A DNA stretch of 64,000 nucleotides, taken from positions 1 through 64,000 of the forward strand of contig CANQHN010000004.1 of assembly GCA_947623745.1 (NCBI GenBank), given 5' to 3'. Below the pieces are notes generated by a model that was not told the DNA's origin, searched no databases, and saw only the letters and a program-made list of their open reading frames with translations. Source of the stretch: an uncultured Oscillospiraceae bacterium. GTDB taxonomy: Bacteria; Bacillota; Clostridia; Oscillospirales; Oscillospiraceae. A program made the translations under genes and the position numbers. This document shows positions 52,812 through 55,253 of the stretch, one piece after another (the first letter of the stretch is position 1; each line of letters begins with the position of its first letter).

Positions 52812-53765
52812 ATGCAGCTGGACTTCTGGCAGGTCCTGACCAACCTGGTGGGCCTGTTCCTGCTCATCGCCGTGGGCTACGGCGCGGTGAAGCTGAATAT
52901 CATCCCGGCGGAGATCTCCGGCGCGCTGTCCCGGCTGCTGCTGAAGATCACCCTGCCGTGTACCATCTTCACCTCCCTGCTGCGGCCCTACGACCCGTCC
53001 TTTCTGCGGGACGTGATCGTGGTGTTCGTCCTGGGTCTGGTGATGCTGCCCATCCAGGCGGCCATCGCCCGGCCCGCCGCCGCGCTGCTGCGGGTCCGCA
53101 GGGACCGGCGGGGGATGTGGGCCTTCTGCACCACCTTCTGCAACAACGGCTTCATGGGCTTTCCCATCGCCCTGGCCCTGTTCGGGGAGGAGGGGCTGGC
53201 CCTGGCGGCGGTGTTCAACATGTCCTTCAACCTGATCATCTACTCCATGGGAGCGGCCATGATCTGCTCCGACCGGCCCAAGGGCGCCGGGGGGCCGTCC
53301 ATCGACCTGCGCTCCGTGCTGGTCACCGGCATCAACGTGTCGGCGGTGCTGGGGCTGGTGTTCTACTTCGCCCAGCTCTCCGTCCCCGCCGCGGTCCTCA
53401 CGCCCCTGACCCACCTGGCCAACGTGACCACCCCTCTGTCCATGATCATCACCGGCATGAACCTGGCGGGCGGGAGCCTGCTGGCCCTGTTCCGGGACCG
53501 GGACGTGCTCACCGCCGCCGCCGTCCGGCTCACCGCCATGCCGCTGATCGCCTTCGCCCTGCTGAACCTGTTCGACCGCCTCGTGCCCTTCGGGAACCCC
53601 CTGATCCTGGGGGTCATCTTCGTGACGCTGGCCATGCCCACCGCCGCCGCCTCCACCATCCTGGCGGAGAACTACGGGATCAACCGGGAGTTTGCCGCCA
53701 GCGCGGTGTTCCTGTCCAGCCTGTTCTGCATCGTCACCATCCCGGTGATGGTGATGCTGCTTTAA
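52812..53765 (+). CDS. AEC (auxin efflux carrier) family transporter
   Basis: TM-rich; LNIIPAEISGALSRLLLKITLPCTIFTSLL; TFCNNGFMGFPIALALFG. Confidence 0.9.
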   Translation: MQLDFWQVLTNLVGLFLLIAVGYGAVKLNIIPAEISGALSRLLLKITLPCTIFTSLLRPYDPSFLRDVIVVFVLGLVMLPIQAAIARPAAALLRVRRDRRGMWAFCTTFCNNGFMGFPIALALFGEEGLALAAVFNMSFNLIIYSMGAAMICSDRPKGAGGPSIDLRSVLVTGINVSAVLGLVFYFAQLSVPAAVLTPLTHLANVTTPLSMIITGMNLAGGSLLALFRDRDVLTAAAVRLTAMPLIAFALLNLFDRLVPFGNPLILGVIFVTLAMPTAAASTILAENYGINREFAASAVFLSSLFCIVTIPVMVMLL

Positions 53766-53788
53766 CGGGCGCGCCCGCCCAAAAGAAT

Positions 53789-53817
53789 GCCTCCCCTGTC
53801 CGATGGACAGGGGAGGC
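53789..53817 (+). terminator. Terminator of AEC transporter gene
   Basis: GCCTCCCCTGTCC-gat-GGACAGGGGAGGC then tctgtttttt. Confidence 0.85.
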
Positions 53818-53872
53818 TCTGTTTTTTGCGCGGGGCGGAATGGCCAAAAAGGGAAGTTTTCCGCGTTTTTTC

Positions 53873-53901
53873 TTGACTATGCCCCGGCGCGGGAGTACAA
53901 T
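53873..53901 (+). promoter_or_regulatory. Near-consensus sigma-A promoter
   Basis: TTGACT-N17-TACAAT. Confidence 0.8.
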
Positions 53902-53907
53902 GGAGCC

Positions 53908-54119
53908 AGCCAAGAAAAAGTGCGGCGGTCATGGGGTGTTGCGACCACCCCATGACCTGCATACGGTGAAAGCACCACCATACACAGGGGGCAAGCCCCC
54001 ACACGCATGAATATTATACGGCAACTCCCGCCTTCTTGCAAGGGGGGAGCCCGCTGGATATTCCCTGTGTGCGCCTTTGTGCCTATGTATGGGTCCCTGA
54101 CCGTACATAGGCGCTTTTT
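53908..54119 (+). ncRNA. Candidate structured RNA (sRNA or cis-leader) ending in intrinsic terminator
   Basis: 12-bp perfect hairpin 53927-53957, GGTGaaagCACC hairpin, ACACAGGG/CCCTGTGT long-range helix, terminator stem 54079-54114 plus T5. Confidence 0.6.
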
Positions 54120-54194
54120 CTTGGTGGGGAAACAGAGCCCGGGCGGCCCCCCGCCCGGGCGGACACCTCATCAAGAACACAGGAGGAGATCAAC

Positions 54195-55253
54195 ATGAAA
54201 AAGCGCGTCCTTTCCCTGGCGCTCACCCTGGTCCTGGCCCTGTCCCTGGCGGTCCCCGCTTTCGCGGATGAAACGGTGACCTGCCCCGCCACCGGCGGCA
54301 ATCTGTACTTTGGCGTAGCCAGCGATGGCGCGTGGATTAATGACGCGGACCCGGACATCACCGCCGTCACCTTCCCCGCCTCGGTGAGCGGGATACCCGT
54401 CGACCCCATGTCGGTTCGGGATTTCTTGTATGGATATGGTCCCAGCCTGACCAGCCTCACCTTCCCCGCCGCGTACTGCGGAGAGAACTGCTACTATAAA
54501 GACACCTATGGTCCTGAGTTTCAGGCGGAGCTCTTTGTTGCCGTGATAGAGGCCGCGAGAATGTGGGACAGCCTGACCGACGTCTACTGGGGCGACGACG
54601 GCGCTCTCCTGGCGGCGGTCCTTGGCTTTTCCTCTCCCTCGGAGCTTCAGACGCAAATCCGCAATGAGATAGGCCGGAACAACTTCACCATTCACCTGAA
54701 CAGCACCGGCTCGGCGGCCCAGCCCCAGCAGCCCGCCGCGCCGCAGGCCCCCGCCTCCGGGTTTACTGATGTGCAGAAGGGCGCCTACTACTACGAGCCG
54801 GTCCTCTGGGCCGTGGATAAGAGCATCACCAGCGGCACCTCCGCCACCACCTTCTCCCCGGACCAGACCTGCACCCGGGCCCAAATCATCACCTTCCTGT
54901 GGAAGGCCGCCGGCTCCCCCGAGCCCAAGAGCCTCTCCGCCTTCTCCGACGTAAAGACCGACGCCTACTACGCGAAGGCGGCGGCCTGGGCCAAGGAGAA
55001 CGGCATCGCCTCCGGCGCGGCCTTCTCCCCGGACGCCCCCTGCACCCGGCAGATGGCGGTGGAGTTCATGTGGAAGCACGCCGGGAGCCCCAGCGCCCCC
55101 AGGGCGCAGTTCACGGACGCCTCCTCCCCGGCGGTGGACTGGGCCGTGGATAAGAGCATCACCAGCGGCACCTCTGACACCACTTTCTCCCCGGACCAGA
55201 CCTGCACCCGCGCCCAGATCATGACCTTCCTCTACAAGGGGCTGGCCGGCTAA
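54195..55253 (+). CDS. Secreted protein with C-terminal SLH domains
   Basis: Signal peptide; repeated WAVDKSITSGTSATTFSPDQTCTRAQIITFLWKAAG. Confidence 0.85.
   Translation: MKKRVLSLALTLVLALSLAVPAFADETVTCPATGGNLYFGVASDGAWINDADPDITAVTFPASVSGIPVDPMSVRDFLYGYGPSLTSLTFPAAYCGENCYYKDTYGPEFQAELFVAVIEAARMWDSLTDVYWGDDGALLAAVLGFSSPSELQTQIRNEIGRNNFTIHLNSTGSAAQPQQPAAPQAPASGFTDVQKGAYYYEPVLWAVDKSITSGTSATTFSPDQTCTRAQIITFLWKAAGSPEPKSLSAFSDVKTDAYYAKAAAWAKENGIASGAAFSPDAPCTRQMAVEFMWKHAGSPSAPRAQFTDASSPAVDWAVDKSITSGTSDTTFSPDQTCTRAQIMTFLYKGLAG

Follow-up and report, generated by a model that had tools for sequence, protein, structure and literature searches.

Most known examples of antisense attenuation come, to our knowledge, from plasmid copy control and from single loci such as icsA. 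In the pT181/pIP501 type, the antisense RNA is complementary to a leader with a terminator ahead of the gene, it covers the sequence that holds this terminator, and hairpin loops make the first contact (cf. PMC3753616); in engineered sets of orthogonal pT181 attenuators, crosstalk is avoided by changed loops and upper stems (PMC3753616). The experimentally established relative in mechanism is RnaG of Shigella, where an antisense-induced terminator, together with kissing loops and convergent promoters spaced by ~120 nt, acts on the surface-protein gene icsA (PMC5394118). In Bacteroides, cis-antisense RNAs of the DonS type form a parallel family directed against surface-protein genes (PMC7366714).

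Here we analysed a locus in a 64,000-nt stretch of DNA from an uncultured Oscillospiraceae bacterium (the window), which is probably a cis-antisense transcription attenuator of a gene for an exported protein with SLH domains. At the sequence level it presents three hallmarks of the class, namely an antisense gene with its own promoter opposite the leader, a leader terminator and alternative target:terminator pairing, and it is predicted to resemble the pT181/pIP501 type at each of the points listed above. Unlike that type, the cassette is chromosomal, occurs in many copies per genome, precedes surface-protein genes rather than rep, and encodes a compact four-way-junction antisense RNA whose loops differ among copies; the gene downstream is not one for plasmid replication but the SLH gene in the window, and the 59 proteins examined downstream of the cassettes are mainly exported. 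The likeness to RnaG is one of mechanism: RnaG is a 450-nt RNA from a single locus on a virulence plasmid (PMC5394118), whereas the RNAs described here form a dispersed family of ~95 nt. DonS, compared by description only, belongs to a different phylum, and the part of its report considered here describes neither a leader terminator nor a four-way junction (PMC7366714). The engineered pT181 sets were built in the laboratory; the cassette looks like a natural set, with orthogonality suggested by its loops. What is new, as far as sequence comparison goes, is that the family is dispersed over chromosomes, that its antisense RNA has an unusual four-way junction and that its loops are diversified; the mechanism class is already known.

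Facing promoters upstream of the SLH gene

The first-pass annotation had read this locus as one plus-strand structured RNA with its own promoter and terminator. The elements it listed were all recovered, including the promoter boxes (TTGACT, 53873–53878; TACAAT, 53896–53901), a hairpin at 53927–53957, the GGTG/CACC and GGGGG/CCCCC pairings (the latter at 53987–54000), the terminator at 54079–54119 and the ATG at 54195. A long-range helix between ACACAGGG (53982–53989) and CCCTGTGT (54063–54070) is likewise present in the window, but was set aside as unsupported across loci in a test of matched versus mismatched pairing (p=0.74). The plus strand from 53908 to 54125 folds at −113.2 kcal/mol against −75.6 (sd 4.6) in shuffles (z=−8.1), and the interval 53600–54400 contains two promoter-like sites where 0.2 would be expected, and four terminator-like sites where the expectation is 0.7. 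The second promoter-like site, overlooked by the annotation, lies on the minus strand at 54041–54013, and the hairpins are better formed on that strand than on the plus strand. The “structured RNA” is best explained, with reasonable confidence, as two overlapping and facing transcripts, a putative antisense RNA of ~95 nt, cloverleaf-like in shape, and the terminator-bearing leader of the SLH gene, with the following features.

53873–53901, plus strand: leader promoter TTGACT-N17-TACAAT, facing the antisense promoter
53909–53923, plus strand: element A at the leader 5′ end, complementary to the antisense RNA tail and to 54111–54125
53914–54006, minus strand: antisense RNA of ~95 nt (start and end predicted), a four-way junction of closing stem P0, HP1 (5 bp), HP2 (12 bp) and HP3 (12 bp), with a U-run at ~53918–53914
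53927–53957, minus strand: HP3 with hypervariable loop GUCGCAA, likely the main kissing loop
53958–53986, minus strand: HP2, UGUGUAUGGUGG/UCACCGUAUGCA with G-U pairs and a hypervariable loop
53978–53984, plus strand: element C (CCATACA), lying within the antisense target, predicted to sequester the 5′ arm of the terminator while the 3′ arm has yet to be transcribed
53987–54000, minus strand: HP1, GGGGG-CUUG-CCCCC
54013–54041, minus strand: antisense RNA promoter found by sequence scan (TTGCAA, 54041–54036; 17 nt; TATAAT, 54018–54013)
54079–54119, plus strand: leader terminator, 14-bp stem followed by TTTTT
54086–54092, plus strand: terminator 5′ arm (T5), TGTATGG, predicted partner of C
54118–54126, plus strand: element X (TTCTTGGTG), the end of the U-run and beyond, able to pair with A or Y
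54169–54177, plus strand: element Y (CATCAAGAA), directly before the ribosome-binding site and able to pair with X
54181–54188, plus strand: ribosome-binding site AGGAGGAG, 3 nt after the end of Y
54195–55253, plus strand: target gene for an exported protein of 352 aa with a signal peptide and three SLH domains

The leader in the window is predicted to start near 53908 and the antisense RNA to end near 53914, so that the antisense RNA would be complementary to the first ~98 nt of the leader. The two promoters face each other at a distance of ~110 bp in almost every copy of the cassette; the antisense promoter (≤3/12 mismatches) was found in 115 of 117 copies (2.3% in shuffles) and the leader promoter (≤4 mismatches) also in 115 of 117 (27% in shuffles). 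A leader terminator lies between the antisense target and the gene in 70 of 76 loci, as opposed to 10 of 76 in the control. Further upstream in the window, a perfect 13-bp terminator (53789–53817) behind a gene for an AEC-type transporter separates that gene from the cassette.

Strand and covariation of the antisense RNA

A BLASTN search of 99 related genomes with 53870–54200 as query gave short matches only. At two of the loci (L002 and L006) the window element is present as its reverse complement, in the form of a compact gene that has a promoter and a U-run of its own, and the window RNA and four homologues each comprise three adjoining hairpins and a short closing stem with almost no unpaired junction bases. 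A covariance model (R1) built from five hand-aligned sequences matched the window at 54005–53915 on the minus strand. In an alignment of 60 distinct homologues, 96.3% of cells were paired and 32 of the 35 pairs, read on the minus strand, had changed on both sides, counts that lean towards the structure to which the alignment was fitted and that are to be read against 34–58% paired in slid controls; the covariation score was 0.60 compared with 0.22 in shuffles. The compensatory changes that the annotation had proposed looking for are present.

Among the non-Watson-Crick cells, 379 were G-U and 19 A-C on the minus strand, figures that a plus-strand reading would exchange, and this ratio identifies the conserved structured RNA as the minus-strand one. 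The 12-bp stem of HP2 illustrates the point, being held on the minus strand partly by G-U pairs that become A-C mismatches on the plus strand. On this comparative evidence the covarying four-way junction belongs to the minus-strand RNA, and the plus-strand transcript would be its target and the leader of the gene. The structured RNA proposed by the annotation is real and has no Rfam match, but it is not a single plus-strand RNA.

The Rfam search, also proposed at first pass, was extended from the whole window to ten homologous loci and returned no family of Rfam 15 at the gathering threshold; lax searches of the same sequences gave chance-level matches only and nothing credible. No description of such a family was found in the open-access literature searched, an absence that is no proof, and the main text of a survey of structured RNAs in the human microbiome names neither Oscillibacter, Flavonifractor nor the S-layer (PMC8040213).

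Leader pairings and proposed attenuation

In the mechanism proposed here, a sigma-70-type promoter inside the leader would drive the ~95-nt minus-strand RNA, complementary to the first ~98 nt of the leader. Without this RNA, the 5′ region of the leader would sequester the terminator, with C holding its 5′ arm and A holding its 3′ arm, the U-run and the bases beyond, and RNA polymerase would read into the gene. Binding of the antisense RNA would begin by kissing of the HP3 and HP2 loops; once bound, it would cover A and C, the terminator would form and transcription would stop. The anatomy, the covarying junction and its strand, the recurrence before genes for exported proteins and the co-varying alternative pairings are established by the alignments and scans; we infer that both RNAs are made, that the loops kiss and that the antisense RNA turns the gene off. 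Anatomy and pairing support this mechanism well; its operation is a prediction.

Pairing of A with the terminator 3′ arm, U-run and X gave mean energies of −25.8, −18.8 and −14.3 kcal/mol in matched, mismatched and shuffled combinations, respectively (p=1.5e-11), and co-varies between loci, as do the X:Y (p=3e-8) and C:T5 (p=1e-5) pairings, all three p-values being made optimistic by kinship among the sequences. The A pairing comprises 45 distinct duplexes among 62 loci and, as A is also targeted by the antisense tail, the A:terminator and A:antisense pairings are mutually exclusive.

When the antisense site was blocked in equilibrium folding, the mean terminator probability reached 0.98, up from 0.83 (or from 0.74 when a longer downstream sequence was included), and the change exceeded 0.3 in only 11–17 of 62 loci. 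In the window the values were 0.89 without antisense RNA and 0.98 with the site blocked, i.e. a weak switch at equilibrium. Given such small changes in the window and most loci, the switch would have to be kinetic. In 54 of 62 loci, the T5 arm is predicted to be bound to the antisense target at a stage when the 3′ arm has yet to emerge (0.67 in the window, and still 0.50 in a control with exchanged downstream halves), and this modelled holding supports a kinetic switch.

Other readings of the same anatomy were weighed. The antisense RNA could act after transcription, with the duplex being cut by RNase III or altering mRNA stability or ribosome access, and with A:X and X:Y tuning the read-through mRNA. 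This would fit the co-variation of X:Y, with Y ending 3 nt before the ribosome-binding site, the extension of A:X past the U-run into a region transcribed only upon read-through, and the prediction of a strong terminator in both states in the window. However, such control would have no need of the well-placed leader terminator kept in nearly all loci, and the A pairing covers the terminator 3′ arm too, so that we consider this reading unlikely, if worth keeping in mind. It is improbable that transcription interference is the main principle, with the convergent promoters setting the ratio of transcripts, perhaps with two stable states, and RNA pairing being secondary. The promoters do face each other ~110 bp apart in almost every copy, and those of icsA and RnaG, 120 nt apart, do interfere (PMC5394118), but interference explains neither the covarying four-way junction, nor the loop diversity, nor the co-varying leader pairings.

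A trans-acting small RNA, addressing other mRNAs through its variable loops and placed opposite the leader incidentally, would equally have its own promoter and terminator. This is quite improbable, as a facing leader promoter, a leader terminator and a gene ~200 nt away accompany nearly every copy, the genome contains no further site for the HP3 15-mer of the window even with one mismatch allowed, and A, to which the antisense tail would bind, co-varies with the terminator in the leader of the same locus. The annotation had favoured a plus-strand RNA, either a stand-alone small RNA or a riboswitch or attenuator of the SLH gene. A small RNA gene and a probable attenuator were indeed found, with the main structure of the small RNA on the opposite strand from that proposed. 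The strong plus-strand fold (z=−8.1) and the terminator before the gene would suit a metabolite riboswitch or a plus-strand small RNA, but it is the minus strand that the covarying stems fit, the four-way junction lacks a conserved unpaired core, variability is highest in its hairpin loops and there is no matching Rfam family; on the strand and covariation evidence, both were rejected as barely credible.

Distribution, loop diversity and target genes

The genome of the window contains six copies of the cassette, and up to 11 per genome occur in the genus, where full-length R1 matches were found in 40 of 64 genomes. In the order, 39 of 394 genomes carried it, representing 21 of 168 genera and seven families; named carriers include Oscillibacter sp. 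1-3, Flavonifractor sp. An10 and An82, Pseudoflavonifractor sp. 524-17 and Colidextribacter sp. OB.20. Of 398 other genomes in a sample of the phylum, 4 had copies according to a second model (R2); all 4 belong to other classes, and one family there has up to 7. The copies of other classes that were read retain the antisense promoter and the four-way junction, show a leader terminator where the sequence reaches far enough and often precede exported proteins. A phage origin was rejected, searches of viral collections having given only one match (a viral contig) per pattern. The genome of the window also holds a weak full-length model match (G000:C12:51329-51410, minus strand; E=0.02), perhaps a seventh, degenerate copy, and a partial copy (L007:1500-1565, i.e. 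G000:C1:20996-21058) in which only the antisense promoter and HP1 are recognizable, with 79% identity over 63 nt, probably a decayed cassette.

Among 81 copies from genomes of the genus, none of the 211 pairs within one genome shared an HP2 or HP3 loop, and an HP3 loop was shared in 49 of 3110 pairs between genomes; the permutation signal was modest for HP3 (p=0.03) and not significant for HP2. The five lipoprotein copies of the window's genome share an almost identical scaffold, with a different loop pair in each. YUNR, a motif linked to rapid kissing among the antisense RNAs of plasmids, was enriched on one or other strand in HP3 loops (0.42 versus 0.25) and not in HP2 loops. Loop diversity and the unique HP3 15-mer of the window fit private antisense-target pairs and, as no two copies within a genome have the same loops, each antisense RNA would control its own gene only.

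The gene usually starts ~200 nt past the antisense start point and is preceded by a ribosome-binding site. Its product was scored as exported in 65 of 113 cases, and in more by eye, a fraction that is approximate given the crude ORF picker and signal-peptide rule; the signal peptide is typically MKKKxLSLALALxxCLGLTVPAFA or of the lipoprotein kind, and some copies precede non-exported genes. Pfam domains among 59 downstream proteins included SLH (12), BspA-like leucine-rich repeats (12) and WG repeats (9), with occasional others, among them a TnpB-like protein, an integrase and a helicase. The cassette is therefore common to genes that are mostly non-homologous beyond the signal peptide. In the window's genome it precedes only one of many SLH genes (63 SLH domain matches) together with five lipoprotein genes.

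These cassettes may conceivably form a dispersed natural library of mutually orthogonal antisense attenuators that switch each surface-protein or lipoprotein gene separately, perhaps stochastically via the facing promoters, as an RNA counterpart of phase variation without DNA rearrangement in gut Oscillospirales; we put this forward tentatively. The cassette is in any case widespread on chromosomes and recurs in front of many unrelated genes for surface proteins in common gut bacteria. If confirmed, it would offer a large natural set of orthogonal RNA switches of a kind so far engineered by synthetic biologists, and a testable mechanism for the choice of surface proteins displayed by little-studied gut Firmicutes.

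The downstream proteins were also considered as phage genes, a candidate that was dropped when nine of ten tried had no PHROG match and the tenth was a helicase. A recurrent protein of ~50 aa (MxDYxxMYLxLFxAxEEAxNLLIxAQxxCEELYxSS) lies behind the cassettes at L063, L239, L245, L249, L256 and L261, and the two examples tried had no PHROG match. A TnpB-like gene and a gene for a tyrosine integrase (L100:232-1338 and L101:34-1128) each follow a single cassette, and such mobile-element genes may be borrowing the same switch. At L044, L049, L058, L066 and other loci, paralogues combine a similar leader and signal peptide with different mature proteins, a pattern suggestive of spread of the 5′ cassette or of its exchange by recombination.
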